Positions 10,073 to 49,536 of a DNA stretch of 50,092 bases are shown here, piece after piece. Position 1 is the stretch's first letter, and each line of letters starts with the position of its first letter. A model generated the notes under the pieces. The model did not search any database. It was not told where the DNA came from and saw only the letters and a list, made by a program, of their open reading frames with translations. Source of the stretch: Clostridia bacterium (lineage in GTDB: Bacteria > Bacillota > Clostridia > Oscillospirales > CAG-272); assembly GCA_017387685.1 (NCBI GenBank), contig JAFOEU010000092.1:1-50092 (forward strand), written 5' to 3'. Both the position numbers and the translations under genes were made by a program.

Positions 10073-11458
10073 TTATTCGTTTCCTTCTGTATCGTCTGAG
10101 TGCTTCTTTTCAGCCCTTTTTAAGATGCGTAAAGTGCTCATATGGTAGATTTTGGGAACAATATCCTGATCTCCGCTGAGCTTTACCTTGACCTTACCCG
10201 AGATCGGGAAGAGGTCTATGACGGTGCCTTTTCCGTCGGGAGTTTCGACGAAGGAGTCAACGGGAGGCATCAGCGCAAGCTCGCGCTCGTAAGCATCCTG
10301 CTCGTAGCGCAGACAGCACATAAGTCTGCCGCATGTGCCGGATATCTTTGCGGCGTTGATCGAAAGACCCTGTTCCTTTGCCATCTTGATCGAAACCTGA
10401 ACGAAATTGGGAAGGAAGCCGGCACAGCAGAGCTTGCGTCCGCAAACTCCGAAGCCGCCGATCATTCTCGCCTCGTCGCGGATACCGATCTGACGAAGCT
10501 CGATGCGGGTGCGGAATACTGATGCAAGATCCTTGACGAGCGCACGGAAGTCAACTCTGCCCGCGCTCGTGAAGAAGAATATCAGCTTTGTATTATCAAA
10601 GGTGTACTGTGAGTCAACGAGCTTCATATCGAGCCCGTGGTCTGCGATCTTGGTAAGGCAGATCTTGAAAGCCTCATGCTGACGGCGGCGGTTATCCTCG
10701 TGGTGAGCCTCGTCTTCCTTGGTTGCCTCTCTGATGACGGGACGGAGGGGGGCAACGATCTGATCCTCGGGGACCTTGCGGTTGGCGATCACGATCTCGC
10801 CGAACTCAAGTCCCTGCGCGGTTTCTACGATAGCGTGTGAGCCCAGACGGAACGTCTTTCCTGCGGGATCGAAATAGTAGACCTTGCTACCGTGCTCAAA
10901 GCGGATGCCAACGATCTCAGGACCCTCGATTTCCTTGGACTCTTCGGGGATGAAGTCCGCGAAGACCGCGTCGAGCGTGGGATCGGGGGGCATCTTGTCG
11001 AGCTCTGCGTCATCGGTCTTGCTGATAGAGAGAAAATCAGATTCGGATTTTGAACGCGCGGGGAGAAAATCAAGCTCGTCATCGGGAGCGGTTGCGAGAA
11101 GCTCGGCCTGCGGACGCGACTTGTCGCGGACCGCCGGGCGGTTCTGGTATTTCCCCTGAGCCTTGGGAGCTTCCTCCTTGGGGGCAGTGGGCTTGGCAGC
11201 CTGCTCCGGCTGCGGCTTGCGAGCGTCGTTGTGCTTTTTATTCTTGTTCTTGTTGTTATTGCTGTTTTGCGGCTGTGTGTTGTTCTTTACGTTTTCGATA
11301 GCGGCCGCACCCGCATCGTTCTGCACTCCGTCGGGCTTTTGCTGATTCTGCGGACGGTGACCCTTGTGGTGCTTTTTATTATGATGATAATGCTTTTTGC
11401 CGCCCTTTCCTGCATCGGAGGCAGCGGCAGGAGCATTTTTCTTGTTTTCGTTATCCAA
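10073..11458 (-). CDS. ricT: RicT/YaaT PSP1-domain protein with long N-terminal extension
   Basis: A 461-aa protein. Residues about 180-430 are the PSP1/RicT domain with its typical cysteines (FGVCGRKLCC, Cys339/344/345, and GTCGRLMCC, Cys376/381/382). In Bacillus subtilis RicT works with RicA and RicF, binds Fe-S clusters and promotes RNase Y-dependent mRNA processing and sporulation phosphorelay. About 178 residues precede the domain here, low in complexity and rich in Lys, His, Asn, Gln and Pro; the Bacillus protein is only about 275 aa in total. The start is TTG at 11458, preceded by AAGGAG with 8-nt spacing. It lies 17 nt after holB, the usual neighbour order. Confidence 0.9.
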   Translation of the reverse strand: MDNENKKNAPAAASDAGKGGKKHYHHNKKHHKGHRPQNQQKPDGVQNDAGAAAIENVKNNTQPQNSNNNKNKNKKHNDARKPQPEQAAKPTAPKEEAPKAQGKYQNRPAVRDKSRPQAELLATAPDDELDFLPARSKSESDFLSISKTDDAELDKMPPDPTLDAVFADFIPEESKEIEGPEIVGIRFEHGSKVYYFDPAGKTFRLGSHAIVETAQGLEFGEIVIANRKVPEDQIVAPLRPVIREATKEDEAHHEDNRRRQHEAFKICLTKIADHGLDMKLVDSQYTFDNTKLIFFFTSAGRVDFRALVKDLASVFRTRIELRQIGIRDEARMIGGFGVCGRKLCCAGFLPNFVQVSIKMAKEQGLSINAAKISGTCGRLMCCLRYEQDAYERELALMPPVDSFVETPDGKGTVIDLFPISGKVKVKLSGDQDIVPKIYHMSTLRILKRAEKKHSDDTEGNE

Positions 11459-29871: not shown

Positions 29872-31272
29872 ATGAAAAAGCTTATCACCCTCGTCCTCAC
29901 CCTTGCTCTTGTAGCATCTCTTTTCGTTCTGCCCTCCGCGGCTATCACCGAATCCGAGGTTGCTGCTCTTAAGTACACACTTATTATGCAGTCCTCCAAC
30001 GGATTGACTTATACCGGAGACGACGTGCTCTTCTATGCTAAATATCAGATGCGTGGAATGGCTATCTCTCAGGACGGCAAATATGCCTTCGGTGGCTACC
30101 TCAATCCAAGCGGATCTTCAGCTATCGAAATGACTGAGATCGCAACCGGTAAGGCAGTTGCGGGAATTCAGTTCATCCAGCCCGAAAACGGCAAATCCTC
30201 CTACCCCAAGGGACTTGCAACCGATGACAGAGGTTACCTCTACGCCGGACTTGCATACAACCCCAACAATACCCGCGCCGATCTCGCTACCTATTCTTTC
30301 GCTGACGGCAAGCTCACTCAGGTTGGCTATGGCAATGTTATTATGACTGATGCCTCCACCAAGACCGGTGTCAACGGTATCGCAGTTGAAAACGTCAACG
30401 GTACATACTACGCATACGTTGTTGTAAATTACGATGTTGACTACCTCGTTCGTATGAACGTTAACGATCCCGCAAATCCCGTTGTTGATACCGCGTTCGG
30501 TAATAACGGTATGATAGACCTCAAGCAGGCTCCCTACAGCGTTAGCGATGCCAACTATCTCGATGTTGACACCGACGGTACCATCTACCTCTCTTGTAAT
30601 ACTGCCACCGAAAAGAAGCTCATCGTTATCTCCTCTGACGGCTCAATGATCCTCAACGAGGTCGTTCACGATACCGCATACGGCGTTGCACTCTGGGAAA
30701 ATTATCTTTTCATTACTACTCAGAAAACCGGCAAGGTCGGTATCTATGACAAGGCAACCCTCGCTCCCGTTGCCCAGCTTGAGGTTACCGTTGATAATAT
30801 CGTTCTTCCTATTGACCGCGATGATATCCTTCTCAACACCGGCGTTAACTCCTTCTGTAACGTAGCAGTTGTTGGCGATATCCTTTACCTCGGCGACCAG
30901 GGAAGCGGCGCGACCGGACTTGACCAGATCTTCGCGGCAGGCCTCACCGCAGACGCGGCTGCAAAGGTTGAATCCTATGCAAAGGGCATCCACGACCGTC
31001 TCGCTCTGGCATATCCCGAAAAGACCGAAGCCCCCGAGACCACCAAGGCACCCGAAACCGAGCCCGTTACCGAACCCGTAACGGAGCCTGCTACCGAAGC
31101 ACCCGCGCAGACCGAAGCGCCCGCGCAGACCGAAGCGCCCGCACAGACCGAGGCTCCTTCCGTCACCGAAGCGCCTGCCGTAGAGAAGCAGGGCTGCGGC
31201 TCTATGATCGCAGGATCGGTTGCAGTATTCGTACTCCTCGGAGCAGCAATCGTTTTCAAGAAGAAAGACTGA
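29872..31272 (+). CDS. Secreted propeller-like protein with GC...KKKD membrane tail
   Basis: 466 aa. A signal peptide (about 1-24) is followed by about 350 residues of repeating strands (SQDGKYAFGGY, TDDRGYLYAGL, DTDGTIYLSC, YGVALWENYLFITT) that look like a beta-propeller of the NHL/lactonase type. Then comes a Thr/Glu/Pro/Ala linker with repeated TEAPAQ units, then a 26-residue tail: GCGS, hydrophobic stretch with LLGAA, ending FKKKD. The same tail closes the proteins at 41543-43534 and 47764-49536. There is no LPXTG. It is likely exported and held at the membrane or wall. The ATG follows AAAGGAG. Confidence 0.85.
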   Translation: MKKLITLVLTLALVASLFVLPSAAITESEVAALKYTLIMQSSNGLTYTGDDVLFYAKYQMRGMAISQDGKYAFGGYLNPSGSSAIEMTEIATGKAVAGIQFIQPENGKSSYPKGLATDDRGYLYAGLAYNPNNTRADLATYSFADGKLTQVGYGNVIMTDASTKTGVNGIAVENVNGTYYAYVVVNYDVDYLVRMNVNDPANPVVDTAFGNNGMIDLKQAPYSVSDANYLDVDTDGTIYLSCNTATEKKLIVISSDGSMILNEVVHDTAYGVALWENYLFITTQKTGKVGIYDKATLAPVAQLEVTVDNIVLPIDRDDILLNTGVNSFCNVAVVGDILYLGDQGSGATGLDQIFAAGLTADAAAKVESYAKGIHDRLALAYPEKTEAPETTKAPETEPVTEPVTEPATEAPAQTEAPAQTEAPAQTEAPSVTEAPAVEKQGCGSMIAGSVAVFVLLGAAIVFKKKD

Positions 31273-34169: not shown

Positions 34170-35081
34170 TTACAGCTCCCATGTAGCGAGCCATTCCGCA
34201 AATTCCGTATAGGTCGCCTGCATCAATACCTCAAACTCCTCTGCACGGTTCATTATGTACTGAGTTCTGCCGTCACCGAACTGACCTGAATATTCTGCAA
34301 CAGCCGTGTAGTTGCCCGCTTCTATCTCGGCTTCGACCTGTGCGGCAAGCGCCTCGGCTTTTCGGATATTCTCAACAAGAGCGGTGAAGTCGGTCTTGCT
34401 CACGCTTTCAATCGTCGCGATCAGATTGTCAAAGTAATCTTCTTTATATCCGTAATTGTACTGTGCACCGTCGGTCTGGTAGAAGTACTTTGCATCGTCG
34501 GGGTAGAGATAGTCTCCTCCTCCCTCAAACTGTGCCGTGTAAGTCGGCCAGAAGCAAAGGAAGTTGAGGTATTCATACATCTGATAGATATCCGCGATGA
34601 CGTTGGTCGAGGCAAGCTGCTGCCAGAGCTGTATCTTGGGATCAAGCTTGTCGGTATCGAGGATGGTGTAGGTCGCATCCTTGATGCGGTATGTGTATTC
34701 ATATCCGAATTCGTCGGTGTAGTCGCCGAATTCGAGCACTCCCGTCACCTGAATCGCACGGTCGGTGAACTCAAATCCTTCAGCGGATTTCGCATAGACC
34801 GCCATAGTGTTAGCAAGCTGAGTGGTGTTCGGAACGCAGAAGGGGCAGCTCTGGTAGGGAAGATTCATCAGATACATAAATGATCCCGAAATCGGCGAGA
34901 GCGTCGACATATATCCGATTATAGAAACCGTCTTGCCGTCGAGCTTTTCCATCTCCTCAACGCTTTGCGCCTGAGAGAATGAAAGAAGCTGAGCTCCGTC
35001 GGTCGATCCATCCTTTTCACAGGATGCGAGGGGCAGAATTGCGAAAACGAGTGCCAGAATAAATGCAAGCGTTCTTTTCAT
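34170..35081 (-). CDS. Lipoprotein of the metal-type ABC operon (CPFC motif)
   Basis: A 303-aa lipoprotein, signal ending PLASC with modified Cys21. Residues about 45-150 read LDGKTVSIIGYM...LPYQSCPFC...VTGVLEF, which recalls DUF3299-like small domains attached to zinc-regulated ABC transporters; the CPFC at 79-82 could bind metal or be redox-active. The C-terminal ~120 residues are helical. An upstream ATG at 35123 would add 14 residues before the signal; I chose 35081, where TAATG overlaps the permease stop. Function inferred: extracytoplasmic partner of the transporter. Confidence 0.75.
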   Translation of the reverse strand: MKRTLAFILALVFAILPLASCEKDGSTDGAQLLSFSQAQSVEEMEKLDGKTVSIIGYMSTLSPISGSFMYLMNLPYQSCPFCVPNTTQLANTMAVYAKSAEGFEFTDRAIQVTGVLEFGDYTDEFGYEYTYRIKDATYTILDTDKLDPKIQLWQQLASTNVIADIYQMYEYLNFLCFWPTYTAQFEGGGDYLYPDDAKYFYQTDGAQYNYGYKEDYFDNLIATIESVSKTDFTALVENIRKAEALAAQVEAEIEAGNYTAVAEYSGQFGDGRTQYIMNRAEEFEVLMQATYTEFAEWLATWEL

Positions 35082-36259
35082 TAGTCGGAAAGTCCGTCCT
35101 TTCTTGACATGTTGAGCGTGCATACCACGGTGGGAATAACGCTGATCGTAAATATCAGCGCCATAATGGCAAGCTCAAGCGGATAAATTTTAGAACTGTT
35201 AAGAACGATACCCATCGAAGCCACGAACTCGCCCATAAGAATGAGGCAAAGTCTCGATGCCGCAAAGGCAAGCACGGTCGAGATAAGACCGATGATACCG
35301 TTCTGCAGGATGTAAAGCATATTGATCTTGCTCATACCGATTCCGATCAGGCGCATCAGCGAGATCTCCTTCTTCGAATCGTACATATTGAGCAAGGTGA
35401 TGACCGAAATGATGAAAATGTTCATTATTAATATAATGATGCAAAGGATGTAAACGATCTTCGAACTCATATCAACGTTCTCAAGTACCTCGCGAAGCAC
35501 CTCGGAGGGGTTGATGACGAGCAGGGAAGCATCCGCGCCGTATTCGGTCTTGACGGCATTGTAGTGGTTGAAGCTCTTGGTCTTTACAAGGATCGCACAG
35601 ATCTCGCCGTGCTCCTCGTGCTCGTGCTCTTCTTGAGTGTGCTCCTCTTCGCCGCCGTGATCGTGTGTTGCCCAAACGGTTTCAACCGCGGTGAAGATCA
35701 CGTTATCGTATGAGGTGTTAGTCTGCTTGAGGATTCCGACTACACGGAGCGGATTCTGCTCGTGCGCGTGACCGCCCTCGGCAAGTCCGTGCGAGGTAAC
35801 GAGCTCGTCGCCAAGCGAAAGACCGTATTTTTTTGCGACAGCTGAACCGAGAACGCATTCAAAACGTTCGTCGAACATCTCGCCGTCCGAAAGCGCACGC
35901 CCTTCAAGGAAGACGGGCTCGGTGCCCACGATCTTAGCCCCGTTGTAAGAGTCGCCCATAGTGAAGGGAACGACCGCGTTGATTCGCATATCCGCGCGCA
36001 GATTCTCAACGTATTCGTAAGAGATCGTGCCGAGGGGCTTGTCGGTGAAGAACATCGTGTTCATCGCAAGCTGTGTCGAGCTGCCCGCGGGACCGATGAT
36101 GATGTCGTAATAAGCCGCCGTGCTCTTGAAGCCGTCGTCGACCTGCTCGGAAATATTGTAGGCGAGAAGCGCAACGCAGGCGGAAATAACTATCGAAATA
36201 ACAATGAGGACGATCTTTACCTTCTTGATCGCCATATTCTTTATCGCAAACTTAAACAT
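35081..36259 (-). CDS. FtsX/MacB-like ABC permease with His-rich outer loop
   Basis: 392 aa: one N-terminal helix (about 12-34), a large extracytoplasmic domain (35-~265), then three C-terminal helices, the FtsX/MacB plan. The outer domain starts AYYDIIIGPAGSSTQLAMNTMFF, a segment I recall from permeases in zinc-responsive clusters. Histidines cluster at 163-166 (GHAH) and 199-217 (HDHGG, then HxQEEHEHEEH), a likely metal-binding loop. This type of transporter extracts or moves lipoproteins or envelope molecules rather than importing ions. The start overlaps the ATPase stop by 8 nt. Confidence 0.85.
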   Translation of the reverse strand: MFKFAIKNMAIKKVKIVLIVISIVISACVALLAYNISEQVDDGFKSTAAYYDIIIGPAGSSTQLAMNTMFFTDKPLGTISYEYVENLRADMRINAVVPFTMGDSYNGAKIVGTEPVFLEGRALSDGEMFDERFECVLGSAVAKKYGLSLGDELVTSHGLAEGGHAHEQNPLRVVGILKQTNTSYDNVIFTAVETVWATHDHGGEEEHTQEEHEHEEHGEICAILVKTKSFNHYNAVKTEYGADASLLVINPSEVLREVLENVDMSSKIVYILCIIILIMNIFIISVITLLNMYDSKKEISLMRLIGIGMSKINMLYILQNGIIGLISTVLAFAASRLCLILMGEFVASMGIVLNSSKIYPLELAIMALIFTISVIPTVVCTLNMSRKDGLSD

Positions 36260-36893
36260 CTCTTCTGCCTCCCGTCACTTCGTTCATGTCAATAGTGCAG
36301 TCGAAATATTTGCCGAGACGCTCGTCGTGCGTGACTGCAATGAGAGTCTTTCCCTTCGAAATCTCTATAAGCTGCTTGATAACAGCCTCGCCGATCGCGA
36401 AGTTGAGGTTTCCCGTCGGCTCGTCCGCGAGAATGATGTCGGGCTTTTTGACGATCGCACGCGCAATCGCAACTCTCTGTCGCTCTCCGCCCGAAAGATG
36501 CTTGACCTTTTTATTCTTCTTGTCAAGAATACCGAGAGAGTCGAGAACCTCGTCGGCAGCCGAAGTGTCAACACGCTCGAGCTTGAGAATATTGATGTTG
36601 TCAATGACCGTCATCTCGGGGATGAGCTTGAAATCCTGAAAAATGTATCCTATTTTATTAATACGGAATTTATCCTTCTCCTTTTGCGACTTCGAGGACA
36701 TCTCCTCGCCGTTGATCTCGATCGAGCCCGACTCGGGGGAGAGAATTCCCGCTATCATATTAAGTAAGGTAGATTTTCCGCATCCGGAAGCTCCGAGGAG
36801 CATATAGGACTTGCCGTCCTCAAAAACGAGATCGCGGTAATCGATCGCCGTCTCGTTCTGAAAGTGTTTTGAAAGATTGGTTGTTTTTATCAT
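36252..36893 (-). CDS. ABC ATPase, LolD/MacB type
   Basis: 213 aa. Walker A is GASGCGKST near 35-43, the Q-loop is in YIFQDF near 85, the signature is LSGGERQRVAIARA near 130-143, and Walker B is ILADEPTGNL near 155-164, a sequence typical of the LolD/FtsE/MacB branch. The upstream ATG at 36938 lacks a ribosome site; the ATG at 36893 (MIKTTNLSKHF) follows AAAGGAG. It drives the adjacent FtsX-like permease. Confidence 0.92.
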   Translation of the reverse strand: MIKTTNLSKHFQNETAIDYRDLVFEDGKSYMLLGASGCGKSTLLNMIAGILSPESGSIEINGEEMSSKSQKEKDKFRINKIGYIFQDFKLIPEMTVIDNINILKLERVDTSAADEVLDSLGILDKKNKKVKHLSGGERQRVAIARAIVKKPDIILADEPTGNLNFAIGEAVIKQLIEISKGKTLIAVTHDERLGKYFDCTIDMNEVTGGRRDV

Positions 36894-36944
36894 TTTGTAA
36901 CTCCTTTGAAATTCGATTGTCTCTGTGTTGAATTTCAAAGAGAT

Positions 36945-37247
36945 TTACGATAATATTTCGTTCTTGAGCGTTACGGGAGAAGGTGAGAGGTGAGCTCTGA
37001 AGAGAGTGGGCAGTATGCCGCAAATTCGAAGGTGAGCTGTAATCACGGCACAAGCGATCAAGGCTATGATACAGCCGTCACGCAATGCCGAAATAGCGTT
37101 AGCGGTAACGCATAGAGCACATTCCGCCCTTGAGCAGGAGTGGTCGTGCTCGCCGTAAACGTCAAGAAGAGGCGAAAACAGCAAAAAAGCCAACAGTATC
37201 AGCGCAAAAGCAAGCGCCAACAGTCTTTTGGTTTCAAAAATCGCCAT
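36945..37247 (-). CDS. Small membrane protein with His/Cys metal-type motif
   Basis: A 100-aa protein: a hydrophobic helix at about 8-29, an exposed stretch GEHDHSCSRAECALC (His34, His36, Cys38, Cys43, Cys46), then a second hydrophobic region at about 55-80. The His-His-Cys-Cys-Cys arrangement suggests metal binding outside the membrane. I recall similar small proteins beside zinc transport genes in Clostridia. The ATG at 37247 follows GGAGGTAGAAAT; the longer reading to 37382 has no such site. It is first in the ABC operon. Confidence 0.75.
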   Translation of the reverse strand: MAIFETKRLLALAFALILLAFLLFSPLLDVYGEHDHSCSRAECALCVTANAISALRDGCIIALIACAVITAHLRICGILPTLFRAHLSPSPVTLKNEILS

Positions 37248-37278
37248 ATTTCTACCTCCTTTGTGAGTATTCGATATA

Positions 37279-37307
37279 ATTATAGCACAAAAAGAGCACA
37301 AAGTCAA
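37279..37307 (-). promoter_or_regulatory. Sigma-A promoter of the FtsX-type ABC operon
   Basis: Minus strand TTGACT (37307-37302), 17-bp spacer, TATAAT (37284-37279). No clear Zur or Fur box is visible around it. Confidence 0.88.
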
Positions 37308-37528
37308 TCTCTGCTCGAGTGAAGCTTGTGTGAAAATTAATATAATATTAATACAATATAAACCGTAAACGCGCGCCTGCACGTGTTTATTAATAATGAA
37401 GAAAAAAGTGCCGGAGACCCAAAAAAGGAATAAATGATAAATTATAGAAAAAAGTGGATATTAGCGGTAGAGCGGATATAAACTCATACATATTTTTTTC
37501 TTTTTACCAAGAATTTTTTCAAAAGGTA

Positions 37529-37557
37529 TTGACAAAAAGACAAAAGTGGTGTAAAAT
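37529..37557 (+). promoter_or_regulatory. Promoter of the dockerin protein gene
   Basis: TTGACA (37529-37534), 17-bp spacer, TAAAAT (37552-37557). It leaves an untranslated leader of about 150 nt with several inverted segments. Confidence 0.8.
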
Positions 37558-37713
37558 ATGTTACGTGATGTTATGCTATGCCGAAGTGTATCAATTGACG
37601 CTTGGTATACGGGGGCGGCGAGCATTGTGTCCGGACGTAAAACGGACGCGGTTCTTGTCGAAAGCATGGCATGACGAACCCCAAAAAATACATTTTTTCG
37701 AAAGGAAGAAAAC

Positions 37714-40700
37714 ATGAAAAAGATTTTTGCGTTTATCCTGGCAACAATCATGGTAATGTCGCTCGTCCCTGCGTCTGTCTTTGCGGCTTTTACCAAGTGC
37801 CCGGCTACACACACCAAGGACAACTCCTCGTGCACTGTTGTTAAGGTAGTTGATCCCACCTGCCAGTCCACCGGTTACACTCTCTATTCTTGTAACGCGT
37901 GTGGCGAGCAGTTCCCCGATGATGTCAAGAAGGCATCCAGCCACAAGTGGGTTTCCGACCCCAAGAATGCTCACCTCGACATCGAAGCTAACTGTCTCTA
38001 CGAGAAGAGCGGCTCTATCCACCAGATCTGTTCTTACTGTAAGAAGACTCAGGTTAAGACTGTTGATTACAAGTCTACTGAAGTTCACAAGCTTGTTAAG
38101 GTTTCCGGCGTAGGCTGTGAGGAACTCTACAAGTGTACCATTTGTGGCGATCAGGGCTACATCAAGGACAAGAAGCTTAACCCAACCGCTGCTCATACCA
38201 TTGAGTTCAAGAAGATCATCACCGAGCCCTACTGGGCAGACGGCGAAGCTCACAATGGTCTTGCTCTTTATGCATGTAAGATCTCTGGATGTGTATACGA
38301 GAAGGAAGTTATTGTAATGTGCCCCGATTGTACTCATCCTAGCTACACCAAGATTGTAACTGAGAAGAATGCAACTTGCACTGTAGATGGAACCTATGGA
38401 GTACACAAGTGTGACGACTGTGGCGCTCTTTACTACGATTCCAACCTCAAGACTGACAAGACCGAACTCGCTGCTCTTACTGATGTAAATGGTGATAAGG
38501 CTATCACCACTGATGACGCCATCATTAAGGCTCTTGGTCACACCCTTCCTGCTGCAAACCAGATTACCCTTATCGGTTGCACCAGAAGCTACACTTGTAC
38601 CACTTGCAAGGAAGCTGTTATCGAAGAGTTCCATGCAAACATCATCAACACCACTACTGTTGATCCTACCTGCGTAACCTTCGGTATTACCTACAAAGCA
38701 TGTACTCTTTGCGGAACTCAGTGGCCTGAGCTCACCGATCCGCTTGGACACACCGATGACGAAGTTATCATCCCCTCCAACTGCGCAGTTCAGGGTGGTA
38801 GATACACTGTATGTACTCGTCCCGGCTGTCCTCTTGTTGAAGTAACTCTCAACAACGATCCTTCCGGCAACAAGTACAAGGTTGTTGGCGTTGAGCTCTT
38901 CCCCCTCGATAAGAGCGAGCACGACCTCTACAACATCGGCACTGAAGGCTTCGAGACCAAGCCCAGCTGCACCACTTCCGGTCTTAAGATTACTGCATGC
39001 CGTAACGGTTGTGTAGACTATCTCTCTCCCAAGGTTGAGTACCAGGCAGCTACGAACCACAACTTCGTAACCTACCGTACCACTCATAACTGCTCTACTG
39101 CTACCGCTACCCTCTTCTCTTGGACCGGTAGAACCTACCTCAAGTGTACCAACTGCGGTCTCAATACATATGATGATTATGCAGCTCTTGGTTACACCTC
39201 TGCTTACTATGTAGATACCAGAGATTCTGTTATCAAGTTCGAGTTCTCCAGCCTTGCTGAGGCTCAGGAGTATCACGGTGTAGCAATTAACTACTGGACC
39301 TACAACTCTTCTAAGAAGACCGTAAGCATTTCCAAGACTGAGACTCGTAAGGAAGCTAAGCACGAGCTCAAGTTCATCTCCACTGTTCCTTCTACTTGCA
39401 AGGCACAGGGCTATGATCTCTACCAGTGTACCGGTTGCGGTCAGCAGGCTAAGATCATGAAGGCAACTGTAAAGCACACCAACGGCACCTTCGTAAAGGG
39501 TACCGCTGCTACCTGTAACACTGCAGGTGTTCGCGAGTCTTGGCTCTGCGGCGTTTGCGGCGTAAACTTCTACTACGATTACGACGGCAAGCAGAAGACT
39601 GGTTCTCTCGTTATTAATCCTTGTGGTAACTACGACACTCTTAAGCCTGTTACAAACTGCAAGGGTACCAAGTCCTACCAGTGTACTGTTTGTAACACCT
39701 TCTACTCCAACTTCGATTGTAAGACCACAGTAGCTCCCATCGACGCTACCAACCACAATTGGCAGAACGCTTACAAGGGCACTGCTGCTACTTGTAACAC
39801 CACCGGTGTTCTCGAGGTTAGATACTGTAAGGATTGCGTACTTCTCGAAGTAAATGCACTCTATGAGTATGCAGGCGAGATCGAAAGACTCTCCTTCGGC
39901 TCTTGGGCAGGCGCATACAAGAAGTCCGCTAAGGCAGTTTCTATTGACAACCTCCTCGTTGTTTCCAAGCCCGTTACCGTATCCATCGCTAAGAGCGGTG
40001 CTGTAACCTTCCTCTGCGACACTGTTACCACTTCTACCTGCCCCGTAGTAGTTAACAAGTTCGAGCACACCAAGCCCACTCTTGCTAAGGCAGTTGAATG
40101 GGAATCCGCAGTTACCTCCGAGAGAGTAGAAGATACCTCTAAGGATCACACCAAGCCCATGTTCACTAAGAACTACTGTGAGGCTTGTGCATACGAGTTC
40201 ATCACCAACTATGTTGGCGCATACGCTGGTCACATCAATGATAAGGGCAACCTCATCACCACTAAGTGTGACAACGAAGGCGTAAAGGGCAACCGCGTTT
40301 GCCAGCTCTGTCTTAAGGCAGGCAAGACCGAGGCTGAGGCTACCATCACTGTAGCTCACACCTGGTCTTCTGAGACCAAGTCCACCATGACTTGCCAGGC
40401 TGATGGCTATACCTACAAGTACTGTCTCGAGTGCGGTCACTACAACATCTCCGGTGCTACTCCCGCAAACGCAGACTCCTACCACAAGTCAATCAAGAAT
40501 GACCCCAAGAAGATGGAGCTCGTTGGTACTATTGCTGACTACGCTCACGATGGTTCCTACTACTATGCATGCCCTGAGTGCGGCAAGAAGCTCACCGATA
40601 CCACTAAGGGTAAGGTAAAGGGCACTGGTCTTGAGATTTACCTCTCTACTGATGCTGATCTTTACATCCCTGGTTCTACCGTTAAGGTAACTGTTACTCT

Positions 40701-41493
40701 CGACTCTGCAAACGGCGTAAACGTTTGGGCTCTTGGATTCCCTGTAATCTTTGATGCTGACGTATTCGAGTTTGTTGGCTACGAGTTCAACACTGCTGAA
40801 AGCGCATTCCAGACCTTCGCAGTTACCGAAGTTGCTGGTGGCTACAATACCTTCGACGTAATGTTCCACTCTGGCAAGGTAACTGACGGTCAGTTCAAGG
40901 ATTCCGGCGTTCTTCACATCGTTGCTAATGCTGATTCTGATACTCTCATCAAGGGCGAGCAGACTCTTGTAACTCTCGAGTTCAAGGTTGTTGCTGCTGA
41001 GGCTGTTGAAGATGCAACCTTCGCTGTTGCTGCTACCGAAGTAGCTACTGGCGGCGTTCTTGGTAAGAAGCTCACCGAGATCTATCCTGACTATGCAACT
41101 GATCCTATGTTCGTTGCACAGTATGGTAACCTCTACGATGTAGTTGTTGACTCCACCATCAAGACTATCGCTATCGAAGTTATCAATGCAAACGGCAAGC
41201 CTGTTGCAGCTGTTTACAACAAGACCAACGAGTCCGCTCCTGTTGATATCGCAGCATTCCTTGACCTCGATGATAAGCCCGGCATCACCCTTGCTGATGC
41301 ATACGAGCTCTACTACCTCATTTACAACAATGAGTACGATGTAAAGGCTGACGCAAACTTCGACGGTAAGGTTAACGGTCAGGACCTCAGCATTCTCTAC
41401 GCTGTTTACACCGGTGTTATTACCGTTGAGCAGCTCATTGCTCCCGATGCTGAACTTCCCGAAGGCTGGTACGCAGGTCTCGGCGTAAAATAA
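37714..41493 (+). CDS. Secreted Cys-module protein with cohesin-like domain and dockerin
   Basis: 1259 aa. The signal peptide is about 1-22 (ends FAAF). Residues about 25-965 hold roughly 18 modules of the form A-T-C-x5-G-x5-C-x2-C-G followed by GH or SHKW, the zinc-ribbon-like repeat seen in many gut Firmicutes surface proteins. Residues about 970-1125 are a beta-sandwich resembling cohesin (PGSTVKVTVTLDSANGVNVWALGFPVIFDADVFEFV split over strands). Residues about 1175-1243 are a dockerin: a weak first EF-hand (DLDDKPGITLAD) and a good second one (DANFDGKVNGQD). An extra EF-hand-like DVNGDKAITTDD sits near 258. There is no membrane tail. The ATG follows GAAAGGAAG. The next gene, 49 nt on, has a cohesin-like domain and a membrane tail. 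Codon use is strongly biased, suggesting high expression. Confidence 0.85.
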   Translation: MKKIFAFILATIMVMSLVPASVFAAFTKCPATHTKDNSSCTVVKVVDPTCQSTGYTLYSCNACGEQFPDDVKKASSHKWVSDPKNAHLDIEANCLYEKSGSIHQICSYCKKTQVKTVDYKSTEVHKLVKVSGVGCEELYKCTICGDQGYIKDKKLNPTAAHTIEFKKIITEPYWADGEAHNGLALYACKISGCVYEKEVIVMCPDCTHPSYTKIVTEKNATCTVDGTYGVHKCDDCGALYYDSNLKTDKTELAALTDVNGDKAITTDDAIIKALGHTLPAANQITLIGCTRSYTCTTCKEAVIEEFHANIINTTTVDPTCVTFGITYKACTLCGTQWPELTDPLGHTDDEVIIPSNCAVQGGRYTVCTRPGCPLVEVTLNNDPSGNKYKVVGVELFPLDKSEHDLYNIGTEGFETKPSCTTSGLKITACRNGCVDYLSPKVEYQAATNHNFVTYRTTHNCSTATATLFSWTGRTYLKCTNCGLNTYDDYAALGYTSAYYVDTRDSVIKFEFSSLAEAQEYHGVAINYWTYNSSKKTVSISKTETRKEAKHELKFISTVPSTCKAQGYDLYQCTGCGQQAKIMKATVKHTNGTFVKGTAATCNTAGVRESWLCGVCGVNFYYDYDGKQKTGSLVINPCGNYDTLKPVTNCKGTKSYQCTVCNTFYSNFDCKTTVAPIDATNHNWQNAYKGTAATCNTTGVLEVRYCKDCVLLEVNALYEYAGEIERLSFGSWAGAYKKSAKAVSIDNLLVVSKPVTVSIAKSGAVTFLCDTVTTSTCPVVVNKFEHTKPTLAKAVEWESAVTSERVEDTSKDHTKPMFTKNYCEACAYEFITNYVGAYAGHINDKGNLITTKCDNEGVKGNRVCQLCLKAGKTEAEATITVAHTWSSETKSTMTCQADGYTYKYCLECGHYNISGATPANADSYHKSIKNDPKKMELVGTIADYAHDGSYYYACPECGKKLTDTTKGKVKGTGLEIYLSTDADLYIPGSTVKVTVTLDSANGVNVWALGFPVIFDADVFEFVGYEFNTAESAFQTFAVTEVAGGYNTFDVMFHSGKVTDGQFKDSGVLHIVANADSDTLIKGEQTLVTLEFKVVAAEAVEDATFAVAATEVATGGVLGKKLTEIYPDYATDPMFVAQYGNLYDVVVDSTIKTIAIEVINANGKPVAAVYNKTNESAPVDIAAFLDLDDKPGITLADAYELYYLIYNNEYDVKADANFDGKVNGQDLSILYAVYTGVITVEQLIAPDAELPEGWYAGLGVK

Positions 41494-41542
41494 TAATAAT
41501 TAGTTGATCTACAAATTACAATAATAGAACAAGGAGAAACAA

Positions 41543-43534
41543 GTGAAAAGAATAGTTTCTATACTCTTCGTCTTGTGTCTCATAGCTGCTCTTGCGTTGT
41601 CAATAAATGCTGAATCAACCAATAAACTGACATATACAGTGGGGGCTTCGGCCTCCACTGTATCTGCAAATACCGAATTTACAATTTTAGTAAAGGTTAC
41701 CGAAAATACCGGTGTTTGCTTTGTTAAAGCAGTGGTTAAGTATGATTCATCGGTATTGACCTATGTTAGCGGCTCGAAAGACACAACCGCATTCACGGGT
41801 GCAACACTCGATATTAATAATCCCAGAAAGGGCGAAGTAATCGTATCCCTCGGTGGAATCAGCGCATTCTTCTCCCCTAATCCCACAGTTTATTCCCAGA
41901 CAGGCGAATTCGTCTCGTTAAAATTTTCCGTAAATGAAAATGCTCCTGTTGGAAAAACTGAAATTTCTATTACAACCGATAGCGGTGATGTTGTTATCAC
42001 CAAGGATTCTGTTCCGAATTATAATTATGATATCAAAAATGCTTCCACAACTGTTACAGTAACAAGCGGAGCAGCTCATACCTGTAAACCCGGCACGGCT
42101 GTTAAGGAAAATGAAGTTGCAGCTACATGTACTATTGATGGCAGCTATGATTCCGTAGTAAAGTGTACCATTTGTAACGCAGAGATTACAAGAGACAAGA
42201 TCACAGTTCCTAAGCTCGGACACAAAGAAAGCGGCGAACTTAAGGAGAATGAAGTTGCTGCATCCTGCATTTCTGTAGGTAAGTACGATTCTGTGATCAG
42301 ATGTACCGTTTGTAACACAATAATTTCGAAAACAACAGTTGTCGTTCCGATTAACGATAATCATACACCCGGCGCAGCTAAAAAGGAAAACGAAAAAGCA
42401 GGTGACTGCAAAACCGCCTCCTCTTATGACATGGTCGTTTACTGTACTGTTTGCTCTAAGGAGATCAGCCGTAAGACTGAGACTGGATCAAAGGGTGCTC
42501 ATGTTGCCGGTATTCCCGAAGTAAATTACGTTGAATCCACATGCACAAAGAAGGGTTCGATCACTGAGATCTCTAAGTGTAGCTTATGCGGCGTAGAGCT
42601 TGATAAAAAGGTTACCGAGCTTGATCTTGTTGATCATATCAACTCTGCTCCGGTTAAGGAGAATGTTGTTGAAGCAACCTGCACCAAGAGCGGAAGCTAC
42701 CTTAGCGTAGTTAAGTGTGCTACTTGTGGCACTCGCATTTCATCCGAAGTTATTCAGGTTGATAAGCTTGCTCACATTCCTTCTAAGGCTGTAGAAGAGA
42801 ATCGCAAGGAACCCGCAAACTGCGGTACCGTAGGTTCTTACGACTCTGTCGTTTATTGTACGGCATGTAAGATTGAGATCAGCAGAGTGACGCAGTCGAT
42901 CGATCCTCCCGCGCATACTCCCGGTCATGAACCTACAGAGACCACCGCTCAGATCTGTATAGTATGTAATACAGTTCTTAAGCCCGCGCTAGGTCACACT
43001 CACCACTGGAGTTCTGCTCTTACCGGAGATTCGACTGGTCATTGGATCGCATGTTCAGGCTGCTCCGAAAAGAAAAATTTTGCAAGCCACAAGTATGATA
43101 ATAATTGTGATGCAACCTGCAATGATTGTAATGTTCAGAGAACTCCCGGCGACCACGTTTTCGGTCCTTGGGCTACTATCAAAGAGGCTACAACCTCTGC
43201 TGAAGGTCAGCGCGAGCGCAAGTGCAACGTATGCGGATACACTGAGACTGATATTATTCCGAAGAAGGTAGAAGAAACAACTGTTGCACCTCCCGTGACA
43301 ACAAATCCCCCCGAAACTACCGAGGCTCCTGTAGTTACTACTGAGCCTGTGGAAACCACCGGAGAACCTGAAGTAACGACTTCCCCTGAAACTACCGAGA
43401 CTCCCGCTGTTACAACTAAACCCGATGATACAACCGAACCCAAGAAGGAAGAAGGTTGTAAGTCTGCGGTTTCTGTTGGCGTAGCATTCATTGCTATTCT
43501 CGGCAGTGCAATTATTTTGAAAAAGAGAGACTAA
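41543..43534 (+). CDS. Membrane-tailed cohesin-like / Cys-module surface protein
   Basis: 663 aa from a GTG start after AAGGAG. The signal peptide is about 1-24. Residues about 28-175 form a cohesin-like beta-sandwich (VSANTEFTILVKVTEN, VVKYDSSVLTYVSG, GEFVSLKFSV). Residues about 180-560 carry about eight modules with CxxC pairs (VKCTICNAEI, IRCTVCNTII, SKCSLCGVEL, VKCATCGTRI and others), each preceded by a KENEVAATC-type segment. A Thr/Pro/Glu linker follows, then the GCKS...LGSA...LKKRD tail shared with two other proteins here. No LPXTG. It is probably co-transcribed with the dockerin protein (no terminator in the 49-nt gap) and could be its surface receptor. Confidence 0.85.
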   Translation: MKRIVSILFVLCLIAALALSINAESTNKLTYTVGASASTVSANTEFTILVKVTENTGVCFVKAVVKYDSSVLTYVSGSKDTTAFTGATLDINNPRKGEVIVSLGGISAFFSPNPTVYSQTGEFVSLKFSVNENAPVGKTEISITTDSGDVVITKDSVPNYNYDIKNASTTVTVTSGAAHTCKPGTAVKENEVAATCTIDGSYDSVVKCTICNAEITRDKITVPKLGHKESGELKENEVAASCISVGKYDSVIRCTVCNTIISKTTVVVPINDNHTPGAAKKENEKAGDCKTASSYDMVVYCTVCSKEISRKTETGSKGAHVAGIPEVNYVESTCTKKGSITEISKCSLCGVELDKKVTELDLVDHINSAPVKENVVEATCTKSGSYLSVVKCATCGTRISSEVIQVDKLAHIPSKAVEENRKEPANCGTVGSYDSVVYCTACKIEISRVTQSIDPPAHTPGHEPTETTAQICIVCNTVLKPALGHTHHWSSALTGDSTGHWIACSGCSEKKNFASHKYDNNCDATCNDCNVQRTPGDHVFGPWATIKEATTSAEGQRERKCNVCGYTETDIIPKKVEETTVAPPVTTNPPETTEAPVVTTEPVETTGEPEVTTSPETTETPAVTTKPDDTTEPKKEEGCKSAVSVGVAFIAILGSAIILKKRD

Positions 43535-43550: not shown

Positions 43551-43586
43551 CCCCCGGCACCCTCAGGGTGACGGGGGACTTTTTTG
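43551..43586 (+). terminator. Terminator of the dockerin-cohesin pair
   Basis: CCCCCG...CACCC pairs with GGGTG...CGGGGG across a short loop, followed by CTTTTTTG. Confidence 0.88.
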
Positions 43587-43690: not shown

Positions 43691-44890
43691 ATGTTGAAAT
43701 ATGAAACACTGTCGGATGCTTTGAGCCGCCGAATCGAGGCAGAGAAGAGAACGGGCAGTTTTGAGAGAATGGGATTTGACAGCGCCGCTATAACTCGGCG
43801 CTCGAGTCTCGCAAAGGACACGGGAAGCGTATGGCGCCCGCCATTCGTCCACGATATCGACAAGATATTGCATTGCCCGTATTACAATAGATATACAGAC
43901 AAAACGCAGGTGTTCTCGCTGATTAAAAACGATGATATCACTCGCCGTAGCTTGCACGTTCAGCTTGTTTCGCGCATAGCGAGAACGATTGGCGGCGCGC
44001 TGAATCTGAATCTCGACCTGATCGAAGCGATTGCACTCGGTCACGATATGGGACATCCGCCCTTTGCACACACGGGCGAATGCTACCTCGACGAGATATA
44101 TTATGCCTACACGGGCAGACATTTTATGCACAATATCCATTCCGTTCGCGTGCTCGACGAGCAGTTCCCGCTGAATATCAGCCTTCAAACACTCTCGGGC
44201 ATCGCGTTTCACGACGGTGAAATGGAGCTTGAGGAGTACGTTCCATCCGAGCTTAAAAGCTTTGAGGAGTTCGATTGGATAATCGAGCGTTGCTATACCG
44301 ATCGAAAATTTGCCGCTAAGCAGTTACCGTCAACTCTTGAAGGCTGTGTTGTCCGTCTTGCTGACATTATCGCATACCTCGGCAAGGACCGTCAGGATGC
44401 CGCGCGTGCTAAGGTGGTGTCGGAGGATGCATTTGAAAATCACGATATCGGTTCGATAAATGCTGAGATCATCAACAATCTCGTTGTGAACATTATTGAA
44501 AACAGCTACGGCAAACCCTACATCAAGCTCGACTCTAAGCATTTCAAGGCACTTAAAGCATCGAAACGTGATAATTACAGTTTGATCTATGAAAGTGCCG
44601 CAACTCGCGCGAAGCTTGATATTACCGCAAAGCCGATGATGCGTGATCTTTACCGCCGTCTGCGCGAAGATCTCATCAAGGGTGATCGCACTTCACCGAT
44701 ATTTGTTCACCACATCGACTATATTAACAAGTCCTATTACAAGCGTAGGCGACCGTATGAGGAGAGCGATCCGGATCAGATCGTTGTCGACTACATCGCG
44801 GGAATGACCGATAATTACTTTATCGAGCTCCACCAACACCTTTTCCCCGAAAGCAATTATAAAGTAGAATATAAAGGATATTTTGATTGA
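43691..44890 (+). CDS. dGTP triphosphohydrolase-like HD protein
   Basis: 399 aa of the HD superfamily, dGTPase branch. ILHCPYYNRYTDKTQVF, then SLHVQLVSRIARTI, the HD motif ALGHDMGHPPFAHTGE (HD pair 118-119), and TLSGIAFHDGE near 175 follow the order of deoxynucleotide triphosphohydrolases. Such enzymes cleave dNTPs to nucleosides and triphosphate and control dNTP pools. The first two HD-site histidines are present. The ATG follows GGTGAAAT. It is first of four overlapping genes, and the next start overlaps its stop (TGATG). Confidence 0.85.
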   Translation: MLKYETLSDALSRRIEAEKRTGSFERMGFDSAAITRRSSLAKDTGSVWRPPFVHDIDKILHCPYYNRYTDKTQVFSLIKNDDITRRSLHVQLVSRIARTIGGALNLNLDLIEAIALGHDMGHPPFAHTGECYLDEIYYAYTGRHFMHNIHSVRVLDEQFPLNISLQTLSGIAFHDGEMELEEYVPSELKSFEEFDWIIERCYTDRKFAAKQLPSTLEGCVVRLADIIAYLGKDRQDAARAKVVSEDAFENHDIGSINAEIINNLVVNIIENSYGKPYIKLDSKHFKALKASKRDNYSLIYESAATRAKLDITAKPMMRDLYRRLREDLIKGDRTSPIFVHHIDYINKSYYKRRRPYEESDPDQIVVDYIAGMTDNYFIELHQHLFPESNYKVEYKGYFD

Positions 44891-45831
44891 TGTACAGAGA
44901 AATTCTGCAGGAGATCCTGCAATATGATAAGATTATAATCCACCGCCATACCAATCCCGACGGCGATGCGCTCGGAAGTCAGATCGGTCTGCGACTGATA
45001 CTTGAGGAAAACTTCCCCGAGAAAAAGATATACACCGTCGGCGACCACGCAAAAAGATACTCGTTTATGGCACGTTCCAAGATGGATGAGATCGATGATA
45101 CGGTTTATGAGGGCGCGCTTGCGATCATTCTTGATACTTCCGCAAAGTCGCTGATCAGCGACGAGCGTTATACCCTGGCGGCGCGTACCGTGCGAATGGA
45201 CCATCACATTTTCTGCGAGAAGATCGCGGACGTCGAGCTGACAGACATATCCTTTGAAAGCTGTGCGGGACTCGTTGCGGCGTTTGCAAAGGAGTGCGGA
45301 CTCCGTCTGACTCCCCTTGCGGCAAAGTCGCTCTACACCGGAATGATCACGGATTCGGGCAGATTCCGTTACGATTCGACCTCCTCGCAGACCTTCCTCA
45401 TTGCCGCTTATCTGTTTGAGCAGGAATTCGACACAAACGATATCTACCGCAATCTTTACGCCGACGATTTTGCACACATCAGGCTCAAGGCTGAATTCGT
45501 TTTGAAGATCAAGTTCACCGAGCACAAGGTCGCGTATATTTATACCACGCTCGAAGATGCAAAGGCGACGGGTGCGGATACCTTCGCGATCTCGCGCGGA
45601 ATGGTTGGAACTATGGCTGAGATCCGCGGAATCGATATCTGGGTGAACTTCACCGAGACCGAGGACGGTGTCCTCTGCGAGATCCGTTCAAGCAAATATA
45701 ACATCAATCCCATCGCCGTCAAGTACGGCGGCGGAGGTCACAAGAAGGCAAGCGGCGCGACCGTTGCCGATATGGAAGAGGCAATGCGAATGCTTGCCGA
45801 TCTCGATAAAATGTCGGAGGTAGGAGAATGA
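44890..45831 (+). CDS. DHH phosphoesterase, NrnA-type (first copy)
   Basis: 313 aa, cytoplasmic. DHH-family motifs are RHTNPDGDALGS at 19-30, ILDTS near 80-84, MDHHIF at 103-108, TDSGRFRYDS at about 154-163, and the C-terminal DHHA1 nucleic-acid-binding motif GGGHKKASG near 290. NrnA enzymes degrade short RNA oligomers and convert pAp to AMP. I chose the ATG at 44890 over a TTG three bases earlier. Its stop overlaps the next DHH gene by 4 nt. Confidence 0.9.
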   Translation: MYREILQEILQYDKIIIHRHTNPDGDALGSQIGLRLILEENFPEKKIYTVGDHAKRYSFMARSKMDEIDDTVYEGALAIILDTSAKSLISDERYTLAARTVRMDHHIFCEKIADVELTDISFESCAGLVAAFAKECGLRLTPLAAKSLYTGMITDSGRFRYDSTSSQTFLIAAYLFEQEFDTNDIYRNLYADDFAHIRLKAEFVLKIKFTEHKVAYIYTTLEDAKATGADTFAISRGMVGTMAEIRGIDIWVNFTETEDGVLCEIRSSKYNINPIAVKYGGGGHKKASGATVADMEEAMRMLADLDKMSEVGE

Positions 45832-46808
45832 ACAGAGAAATTATGACGGCAGTCCTCGACAAGATCAAGGAGTACAATAAAATAATCCTTTTCCGCCACA
45901 TCCGTCCCGACGGCGACTGTGTCGGATCGACCGACGGCCTTCGCGAGCTTATCCGCGCGAGCTTCCCCGAAAAGGAGGTTTATATTGCCGATTGGCAGAA
46001 ATGCGATTACCTTGCGTTTCTGAACGACGCCGCGGGCGAGATCGACGAGTCGGTCTATGCAGATGCGCTTGCGATCGTGCTCGACACGGCAACGCAGGAG
46101 AGAATTTCGAATCAGAAATTCACTCTCTGCCGCGAGATTATCAAGATTGACCACCACATTCCCGTTGACGATTACGGCAATATGCGCTGGGTTGAGGAGC
46201 ATAGCTCGTCGACTTGCGAGATGCTGGCACGCTTTTACGCAGAGTTTTGCGATCAGCTGAAGCTTACAAAGGAAGCGGCGACCTTTATCTACACGGGAAT
46301 GGTCACCGATTCGGGCAGATTCCGTTTCCGCAGCGTTTCGGGAGACACGATGCGTGCGGCGGCTCTTATGCTCGAAGCGGGAATCGACACCGACCGCCTT
46401 TACGCAAATCTTTATATCGACGACTTTGATCAGCTCAAGTTCAAATCGCACGTATATAATAAGATGAAGATAACCGAAAACGGCGTGGCTTATATTCACG
46501 TCACCGAGAAGATGCAGGAGAAGTTTGCGCTGACATCTGAGCATGCAAGCGCGAGCGTTTCATATCTCGATTCGATCCGCGGAAGCCTTATTTGGCTTGC
46601 CTTTATTGACAATGCCGACGGCACGATCCGCGTGCGCCTGCGCTCGAGATTTTTGCCGATCAACAAGCTTGCCGAAAAATACCGCGGCGGCGGACATGAC
46701 TGCGCGAGCGGTGCGACGCTTCATAAAAAGAGCGAGATAAAGAAGCTTCTCTCCGAAGCTGACGAAATGCTTAAGAATTATAAGGAAAATAACGAGGGTT
46801 GGATATGA
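45828..46808 (+). CDS. DHH phosphoesterase, NrnA-type (second copy)
   Basis: 326 aa, paralog of the preceding gene with the same motif order: RHIRPDGDCVGS at 23-34, VLDTA, IDHHIP near 109, TDSGRFRFRS near 157, GGGHDCASG near 300. All metal-binding positions seem intact, so both copies should be active. Divergence between them is high (I estimate well under half the residues identical), so the duplication is old and the substrates may differ. It is coupled to its neighbours by ATGA overlaps on both sides. Confidence 0.88.
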   Translation: MNREIMTAVLDKIKEYNKIILFRHIRPDGDCVGSTDGLRELIRASFPEKEVYIADWQKCDYLAFLNDAAGEIDESVYADALAIVLDTATQERISNQKFTLCREIIKIDHHIPVDDYGNMRWVEEHSSSTCEMLARFYAEFCDQLKLTKEAATFIYTGMVTDSGRFRFRSVSGDTMRAAALMLEAGIDTDRLYANLYIDDFDQLKFKSHVYNKMKITENGVAYIHVTEKMQEKFALTSEHASASVSYLDSIRGSLIWLAFIDNADGTIRVRLRSRFLPINKLAEKYRGGGHDCASGATLHKKSEIKKLLSEADEMLKNYKENNEGWI

Positions 46809-47763: not shown

Positions 47764-49536
47764 ATGAGAAAGACACTCTCCATCCTTCTCTGCGTTATGA
47801 TGCTTCTCTCCGCTTGCGTATTTGCAATTCCCGCAAATGCTGCTCCCGAAGGAACCGCTATCAACACCGCAGACGAATTCCTGGCAATGGTTTCCACCGC
47901 TGCCGACGCAACCGAGCCTACTGCAAAGTACTACCTTGCAGCAGACATCACCCTTCCTGCATCCTATGCAGAGCCCTTCTGGGGTATCCTTGACGGTAAC
48001 GGCAAGACCCTTACCGTAACCAACCCCGTATTTGCTGACTTCTCCGGCGAAGTTAAGAACCTCACCATCAAGGGCGAGATCTACTACACCGACGCTGATG
48101 CAGCAGGCTTCGCAACCACCTCCTCCAGAGGTTACACCGCTATCAACTGCACCAACAATGCAAACGTAACCGTTATGGGTAACGCTAAGCATCTCGGTGG
48201 CTTCTCCGCAAGAATCGTTAACAACGATCTCGGTGAGGCTGCTTGCCGTTTCGTTAACTGCACCAACAACGGTAACATCTACATCGACTCCACCGCAAAC
48301 GAGAAGATGAGAGCCGGCGGTTTCGCAGGTATCATCGACAAGGTTTCTATGATCAACTGCACCAACAACGGTGACGTTTACTCCAAGGGTAACATCTGTA
48401 TCGCAGCAGGCTTCGTAGCTCGTGTTGGTCTTAACGCGGCTATGAACGTAGCTGAGGCTTTCAACTGCGTAAACAACGGTGATGTTAAGGACGAAGAGAC
48501 CTACATCTCCAAGGACGGTGTTGCAGGCGCAGGTACCGGCGGCGGTGACGCAGCAGGTATTTTCGGTCACATCGGTACCAAGAACAACGCGGGCTGGTAC
48601 AAGATCTGGGGCTGCACCAACAACGGTAACATCGTTGGTCCTTACAGAGTAGGTGGTATGGTTGGTTACGTTTACGCTGCCAATTCTACCGCATACGTTG
48701 ATATTCAGTTCTGCCAGCAGAACGGTAACCTCACCTACGGTCGTGTTGCAGGCGGTTCTGCAACTGCTACTAACGACTACTGCGGTCCTTTCGTAGCTTA
48801 CACCAACTCTCCCTTCACCACCATCAAGTACTGTATCGATACCGGCGTTATCACCGCTACCGAGAACACCATCAACGCTAACGACGGTAGATCCTTCGTA
48901 GGTCTTTCCTCCGCTGACGGTACTCAGTACGATATCACCAGCGTATACGTTCTTAATAAGGAACAGTATAAGTGGGTAACCTACTCTCACAACCCCGATT
49001 ACGTAGCTAACTGCCACGGCATCGAAGAGGCTGAGGGCATCGTTGTTACCACTCTCGAAGAGATCAAGTCCGGTAAGGTTGCATACCTCATCAACCAGGC
49101 TTCTCTCAAGGACGAGTATGAGTCTGCAGCAGGCTTCGAGACCTTTGCTCCCGAGGATTATGCTTGGGCAGGCGTTACCGCAGAGAATATGTTCAGCTTC
49201 GGTCAGAAGATCGGCACTGACAATGCTCCCACCGCTAACGTTACCGCTGCAAACTGGATCGTTCTCAACGGCGACAAGTATGAGAACGGCACCAAGGCTG
49301 TAGAAGAAGAGACCACCAAGGCTCCCGAGACCACTAAGGCTCCCGAAGAGACCAAGGCTCCCGAGACCGAGGCTCCCGTAGAGACCGAGGCTCCCGCAGC
49401 TACCGAGGCTCCTGCGGCTACCGAGGCTCCCGCTGACACCGAGCCCGCTAAGTCCGGCTGTGGCTCCTTCGTAGCAGGCGGCGTTGCAATCCTTGCAATT
49501 CTCGGCACTGCTCTCGTTATCAAGAAGAGAGACTAA
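47764..49536 (+). CDS. Secreted NCTNNG-repeat surface protein with GC...KKRD tail
   Basis: 590 aa from the ATG at 47764 after AAAGAGG. The signal peptide ends ANA at about residue 26; an LSAC inside it looks like a lipobox, but the hydrophobic run continues, so type I cleavage is more likely. The middle holds about six GLUG-like repeats (INCTNNANV, VNCTNNGNI, INCTNNGDV, FNCVNNGDV, WGCTNNGNI and a weaker one), a pattern of parallel beta-helix surface proteins. Then come a Thr/Glu/Ala/Pro linker (repeated EAPAAT) and the GCGS...LGTA...IKKRD tail. Codon use is strongly biased. It is duplicated immediately downstream. Confidence 0.88.
   Translation: MRKTLSILLCVMMLLSACVFAIPANAAPEGTAINTADEFLAMVSTAADATEPTAKYYLAADITLPASYAEPFWGILDGNGKTLTVTNPVFADFSGEVKNLTIKGEIYYTDADAAGFATTSSRGYTAINCTNNANVTVMGNAKHLGGFSARIVNNDLGEAACRFVNCTNNGNIYIDSTANEKMRAGGFAGIIDKVSMINCTNNGDVYSKGNICIAAGFVARVGLNAAMNVAEAFNCVNNGDVKDEETYISKDGVAGAGTGGGDAAGIFGHIGTKNNAGWYKIWGCTNNGNIVGPYRVGGMVGYVYAANSTAYVDIQFCQQNGNLTYGRVAGGSATATNDYCGPFVAYTNSPFTTIKYCIDTGVITATENTINANDGRSFVGLSSADGTQYDITSVYVLNKEQYKWVTYSHNPDYVANCHGIEEAEGIVVTTLEEIKSGKVAYLINQASLKDEYESAAGFETFAPEDYAWAGVTAENMFSFGQKIGTDNAPTANVTAANWIVLNGDKYENGTKAVEEETTKAPETTKAPEETKAPETEAPVETEAPAATEAPAATEAPADTEPAKSGCGSFVAGGVAILAILGTALVIKKRD

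Follow-up and report, generated by a model that had tools for sequence, protein, structure and literature searches.

We analyzed the 50,092-nucleotide contig JAFOEU010000092.1 (the window) of a Clostridia bacterium that probably lives in the gut. In this contig, two adjacent + strand genes at 37714-43534, named here gene A (37714..41493) and gene B (41543..43534), may well encode a non-enzymatic two-piece cell-surface stalk. The dockerin of A would dock on the cohesin of B, and we consider this reading to stand a little better than evenly balanced. Loci are designated Lnnn and genomes Gnnn, the genome of the window being G000.

Gene A starts with ATG and encodes 1259 amino acids with 16 C-x2-C (CxxC) motifs, a cohesin and a dockerin. 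Gene B starts with GTG and encodes 663 amino acids with a cohesin, 10 CxxC motifs, a T/E/P linker and a membrane tail, which A lacks. The N-terminus reads as a signal peptide in both proteins, the genes are separated by 49 nucleotides and each is preceded by a ribosome-binding-like stretch. Pfam detected neither an enzyme domain nor a carbohydrate-binding module in A or B. The preliminary description of this DNA had given both open reading frames (ORFs) with the same coordinates and gap, a membrane tail on B only and no enzymes, and our results agree with it on each of these.

Cohesins and dockerin of the gene pair

Both cohesins exceeded the gathering score of Pfam PF00963 (24.1 bits), at residues 986-1103 of A (40669..41022, + strand; E-value 9.2e-7, 29.6 bits) and residues 38-146 of B (41654..41980, + strand; E-value 2.4e-5, 25.0 bits). 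The cohesin jelly-roll fold was confirmed for the domain of A by structural match, and a profile of the B cohesin with eight relatives matched solved cohesins with a best E-value of 1.2e-7. The sandwich domains that had been called cohesin-like are thus cohesins; the non-cohesin fold that had been considered as an alternative was not found for A and is unlikely for B.

The dockerin of A (residues 1184-1234; 41263..41415, + strand) was located by Pfam, by profiles of its relatives and by alignment. A custom dockerin profile, whose iterated set includes A itself, scored all 51 residues with an E-value of 2.3e-7, and the structural model has two helices, in blocks with a predicted local distance difference test (pLDDT) score >90. 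The second calcium-binding-type loop is canonical and intact (DANFDGKVNGQD), as had been reported, and the Pfam Dockerin_1 (PF00404) match at residues 1206-1228 covers 23/57 profile positions (E-value 6.9e-4).

When the cohesin and dockerin complement of G000 (2.58 Mb, 116 contigs, 84.7 % complete) was searched, exactly two cohesins were found by Pfam at E ≤ 1, those of A and B. No dockerin other than that of A was found by Pfam at E ≤ 1 or with a profile of 40 dockerins (that of A plus 39 from relatives) at E ≤ 0.05. Neither a multi-cohesin scaffoldin nor a dockerin-bearing carbohydrate-active enzyme, glycoside hydrolases included, was found in this incomplete genome. As no other cohesin was found in G000, binding of A to B would be the most economical partner assignment.

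An open scaffold, in which dockerin-bearing enzymes or effectors, overlooked here or supplied from elsewhere, are presented on the cohesins of B and A and A is one cargo among several, is unlikely in our view. The sister species are richer in dockerins with the same 40-row profile (G004 11, G012 7 and G009 4), and two of them have, among the proteins that bear a dockerin, a subtilase (L128, G004) and a transglutaminase-core protein (L046, G009), respectively. However, A carries the single dockerin detected in G000, and A and B have only one cohesin each.

The preliminary description had further proposed that an additional EF-hand-like loop near residue 258 of A, together with the cohesin of A, would allow chains. 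The loop is present at residues 257-268 (DVNGDKAITTDD; 38482..38517, + strand) as a match to the general loop pattern, which is uncommon by composition (13/5000 shuffles of A residues 1-975 match). As a second docking site it is weakened, since it is not conserved in place in the three closest orthologues and is scored by neither the Pfam nor the custom dockerin profile; the L094 orthologue has a different EF-like loop slightly downstream of this position. The cohesin of A is real, but because it adjoins the dockerin, self-binding of A would probably lead to branching at the base rather than to end-to-end chains.

Recurrence of the pair in related genomes

Among 89 genomes, 40 had both domains, two had cohesin only, eight had dockerin only and 39 had neither (dockerin E < 1e-5; cohesin E ≤ 0.001). 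At the same cohesin threshold, matches were found in at least 75/146 genomes, and 20/42 cohesin-bearing genomes had three dockerins or fewer.

We sampled 100 of at least 108 clusters of cohesin hits, 99 of which contained a cohesin or dockerin ORF by the custom profiles. In 24/99 loci the gene directly after a cohesin-dockerin gene, in the same orientation, has a cohesin as its first detected domain, and in 23 of these 24 pairs that cohesin lies near the start. The scaffold-pair logic that had been read from the window alone is thus recurrent. The closest architectures among the sampled loci (L094, L116, L118, L110, L111 and L089) consist of a Cys-rich cohesin-dockerin gene with a cohesin gene behind it. 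The contig end cuts the second gene in L111 and L089, which leaves its tail out of view. A three-gene form was observed in L097, with a Cys-rich dockerin protein, a short cohesin-dockerin adaptor and a cohesin-Cys protein with a membrane tail. One stretch of the first L097 protein aligns with the cohesin of A, yet it was not scored as a cohesin.

In four close species synteny is kept (save for the ABC and permease genes described below, not found in L116) and the A-B gap is 36-49 nucleotides. In these species, identity to the window protein is 86-88 % for a neighbouring HD-domain protein, but 28-37 % for A before its cohesin and 48-60 % for B. The corresponding values are 27-38 % for the cohesin of A, 45-62 % for the N-terminal 176 residues of B and 37-49 % for the dockerin. 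Because the cohesin of A is less conserved than the N-terminus of B and the dockerin, the cohesin of B is mildly favoured as the steady partner.

Several observations weigh against the docking of A on B. The dockerin of A, with 20.2 bits, misses the Dockerin_1 cut-off of 22.9 bits, and its first loop (DLDDKPGITLAD) is degenerate. Further cohesins or dockerins may be missing from G000, as the genome is 84.7 % complete. The cohesin of the second gene lies near the C-terminus in the L070 pair, and in five loci (L050, L055, L071, L075 and L084) the gene order is reversed, the cohesin-dockerin gene coming after a cohesin gene that lacks a dockerin. Finally, a mirror-tree comparison of 25 pairs did not distinguish the partner cohesin (Spearman correlation of the dockerin with the B cohesin 0.41 vs 0.45 with the A cohesin).

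A lack of binding between A and B, with the cohesins acting as adhesin-like sandwiches and the dockerin capping the protein or binding elsewhere, is nevertheless improbable. Cohesin-like domains do exist outside cellulosomes (the non-cellulosomal Archaeoglobus cohesin 2xdh is among the fold matches of the A domain) and the degenerate first loop would fit such a view, but the genome-level co-occurrence of cohesin and dockerin is strong and the gene order recurs.

The pair was also seen in other settings. In another congener (L083), a MACPF-domain gene with four Big_3 stretches (7170-10892) lies directly upstream of, and slightly overlaps, a pair of a cohesin-dockerin gene and a cohesin-Cys gene with a membrane tail. 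An extreme form of the theme is found in L050 (5282-13531), where a protein of 2749 amino acids has two cohesins, one dockerin and 28 CxxC motifs and the next gene encodes another large protein with cohesin, dockerin and Cys modules. Tyrosine-recombinase-like genes, recognized by eye, were found on the same strand upstream of the pair in L111 (1939-2778) and L083 (11212-12051), and mobility or phase variation is possible. As the dockerin proteins (subtilase, transglutaminase-core) and neighbours (MACPF) differ among relatives, we regard the pair as a theme with variable neighbours.

Cys/His modules

Most of each protein is built from modules that mostly hold a C...CxxC...H quartet. In A they occupy residues 29-956 (37798..40581, + strand), a putative zinc-stapled stalk, where 14 of the 16 CxxC motifs have a single Cys 5-25 residues upstream and 11 have a His 8-33 residues downstream. 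In B they occupy residues 179-595 (42077..43327, + strand), with six C-x11-CxxC-x15/16-H units and then shorter ones. The module numbers first estimated, about 18 and 8, were close but not exact, the CxxC counts being 16 and 10.

When 35 three-module windows were selected for C-x9-12-CxxC repeated every 38-54 residues, the unselected His after each unit and one Gly were at least 90 % conserved. Loss of the first Cys and of the downstream His tended to be coupled in the units of 36 proteins (206 with both, 10 with Cys only, 55 with His only and 39 with neither; odds ratio 14.6), and also in internal units alone (178, 6, 41 and 7, respectively; odds ratio 5.1). From their sequences, the modules look metal-binding. 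Two points temper this: Fisher values overstate independence because the units within a protein are related repeats, and a His occurs by chance in 326/720 random 22-residue stretches of the same proteins.

A three-unit model (pLDDT 93.1) consists of three-stranded sheets, and no confident match of this model to a solved fold was found. At the sequence level, the module profile matched the immunoglobulin A (IgA) protease of Thomasclavelia ramosa (9qa6_A, E-value 1.2e-9). Likeness to the putative zinc-binding domains (ZBDs) of that enzyme was found both as sequence homology and as three-stranded subdomains. In the report on the protease, ZBD1 and ZBD2 are made of elongated subdomains of three strands each; they have interfacial zinc sites, regarded as putative, and no disulfides, and are presented as a possible new metal-binding fold pending validation, with a possible spacer role consistent with small-angle X-ray scattering (PMC12237041). 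The zinc there is itself only putative, and most sites have two His and two Cys, one having three Cys and one His (PMC12237041), which also speaks for caution. The profile match, the three-stranded beta subdomains and the Cys/His quartets are shared with our proteins. In contrast, the protease has two or three subdomains per ZBD, placed after its peptidase domain, whereas our proteins consist largely of such units, 10-16 per protein, the sites are mostly three Cys and one His, and Pfam detects no peptidase domain.

The preliminary description had suggested metal or ligand capture as the role of the modules. The metal-binding look stands, but the capture is weakened and a structural spacer zinc is favoured, because the closest characterised relatives are described as putative structural-zinc spacers (PMC12237041). 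By this analogy, structural zinc would be the likelier role.

A divergent operon lies upstream of the pair (34170-37382) and encodes a lipoprotein, an FtsX/MacB-type permease, an ABC ATPase and a small HDHSC-containing ORF. It looks like metal transport, and the permease loop is variable but His-rich in 3/3 species where the permease was seen. In L116 the pair and the lipoprotein gene are present, but neither the ABC gene nor the permease gene was found next to them. An FtsX/MacB-type permease was likewise not found beside the more distant pairs of L111 and L097; the upstream sequences in L110 and L089 (521 and 344 nucleotides) are too short to judge. A surface zinc store or scavenger feeding this transporter is quite improbable: the C-C-C-H quartets and the His-rich permease loop of the operon genes at 34170-36938 are in its favour, but the permease gene was not found beside the pairs of L116, L111 and L097, and the nearest characterised modules are putative structural-zinc spacers (PMC12237041).

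Membrane tail and proposed anchoring

Protein B ends in GCKS, a membrane helix and KKRD (43418..43531, + strand), a C-terminal signal that recurs in the genus. Two further GC(G/K)S-helix-basic tails are found in the window, at 31156-31269 and 49420-49533. Sixteen distinct GC-x-S tails were read in the window and 20 further stretches of G000 (L187-L206), and a T/E/A/P-rich linker precedes every one of them. A profile built from five such tails (E ≤ 0.1) matched 30 times in G000 and had some matches in all 13 genomes of the genus; these are not all of the GC type, as six of the G000 ORFs listed end in a TGD-type tail.

A Pfam sortase was found in 8/13 genus genomes and not in G000, G004, G009, G012 and G001, which are 72-86 % complete. 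Four of these sortase-negative genomes had the most tail matches (G000 30, G004 19, G009 18 and G012 25), and G001 had seven. The MYXO-CTERM signal, as described in PMC11980579, is a GC-containing motif with an invariant Cys, followed by a helix and a basic tail. In both signals a GC motif, in which the Cys is constant, precedes a membrane helix and a short basic C-terminus, and both occur on many proteins per genome. They differ in that ours is found in Clostridia, has the motif GC(G/K)S and has no MYXO-CTERM model among its NCBIfam hits: this model did not match any of the five tails scanned at E up to 10, and no other NCBIfam model fits well, the best match being to one tail of the five (E-value 0.026). 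The tail thus appears to be a MYXO-CTERM-like signal, carried by many proteins in a subclade that yielded no sortase.

CPBP-family proteases are of the kind that processes MYXO-CTERM. They are present in all 13 genus genomes, so that their presence is not diagnostic. One CPBP match (G000:C32, 5164-5424) is separated by about 1.3 kb from a pair of ORFs with GCGS tails (L203), and this protease is a candidate for the processing enzyme.

Candidate leader RNA and other features

A promoter-like site (TTGACA-17-TAAAAT, 11/12 matches) lies before gene A at 37529..37557 (+ strand), with a similar counterpart before A in L094, L116 and L118, and a weak terminator-like stem-loop follows gene B at 43560..43577 (+ strand). 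None of the terminator-like sites of the scan falls between A and B, which bears out the earlier statement that no terminator separates them; the scan barely exceeds chance, with 14 promoter-like sites vs 9.5 and eight terminator-like sites vs 5.6 in shuffles.

Between the promoter-like site and gene A, 140 nucleotides (37556..37695, + strand) are a candidate structured leader RNA. None of 200 shuffles folds as well as this stretch (z -5.69), and it is 77.5-91.2 % identical in four species vs 50.7-57.9 % for the 140 nucleotides upstream of the promoter. When a covariance model of the four sequences was searched with stricter filters, the leader was found once per genome and always before A in 4/146 genomes, all of a single genus, the four positives being the training set of the model. 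Covariation is thin, both sides having changed in 1/41 pairs, and no Rfam family matched at gathering level (best E-value 1.4; 30.6 bits, gathering score 49). The leader is therefore treated as a candidate cis-regulatory RNA.

Elsewhere in the window, two tandem related DHH/DHHA1 phosphoesterase genes were observed at 44887-46808.

Proposed assembly and comparison with known systems

In the proposed stalk, B would be secreted and then held at the surface by its GCKS-helix-KKRD tail, with its cohesin outermost on a rod of presumably zinc-stapled beta modules. A, secreted without an anchor, would plug its C-terminal dockerin into this cohesin in a calcium-dependent manner. The N-terminal rod of A, with about 16 modules, would extend the stalk outward, the array of B being the lower part. 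The cohesin of A, placed at the joint, could take a further dockerin, either of another A or of the other dockerin proteins of sister species. The full picture, a self-assembling and non-enzymatic stalk held by cohesin and dockerin, reinforced with zinc in some two dozen beads, anchored by a MYXO-CTERM-like tail independently of sortase and controlled by a new structured leader RNA, is tentative and taken as a whole rather doubtful.

In Ruminococcus flavefaciens, the sca cluster holds clustered genes for the cohesin-dockerin adaptor ScaC and the surface cohesin anchor ScaE; ScaC acts as an adaptor for enzymes, and ScaE is attached by sortase. The clustering of an adaptor gene with a surface cohesin gene is shared with our pair, whereas no sortase was found in G000. 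Scaffoldin classes in PMC11557425 include the monovalent adaptor and the non-SLH anchoring scaffoldin, a C-terminal membrane helix being among the anchoring features listed, and some scaffoldin-bearing species are considered unlikely to form conventional cellulosomes. By predicted domain content, A, with one cohesin and one dockerin (the latter under the Pfam cut-off), is of the monovalent-adaptor architecture and B, with a cohesin and a C-terminal membrane helix, of the non-SLH-anchoring one (PMC11557425). They differ from such scaffoldins in that no multi-cohesin scaffoldin or dockerin-bearing glycoside hydrolase was found in G000, and in that both are built on Cys/His beta modules instead of carrying a Pfam carbohydrate-binding module. 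In addition, mucinolysomes have been reported and a pairwise cohesin/dockerin glycoside hydrolase system of Clostridium perfringens is described (PMC12997984). That system is likewise pairwise and without a classical multi-cohesin scaffoldin, but it carries glycoside hydrolase domains, of which Pfam finds none in A or B. No report of a cohesin-dockerin pair built on zinc-type repeats was found in the open-access literature.

Cohesins and dockerins have been studied mainly as the glue of cellulosomes. In G000 the entire detected set of both is one enzyme-free operon, and where a genome has a single dockerin and two cohesins, the partner assignment can be tested directly. If the stalk is real, cohesin-dockerin docking would also offer a non-covalent means of extending surface structures, and in many such proteins the Cys/His repeats would be structural zinc staples.

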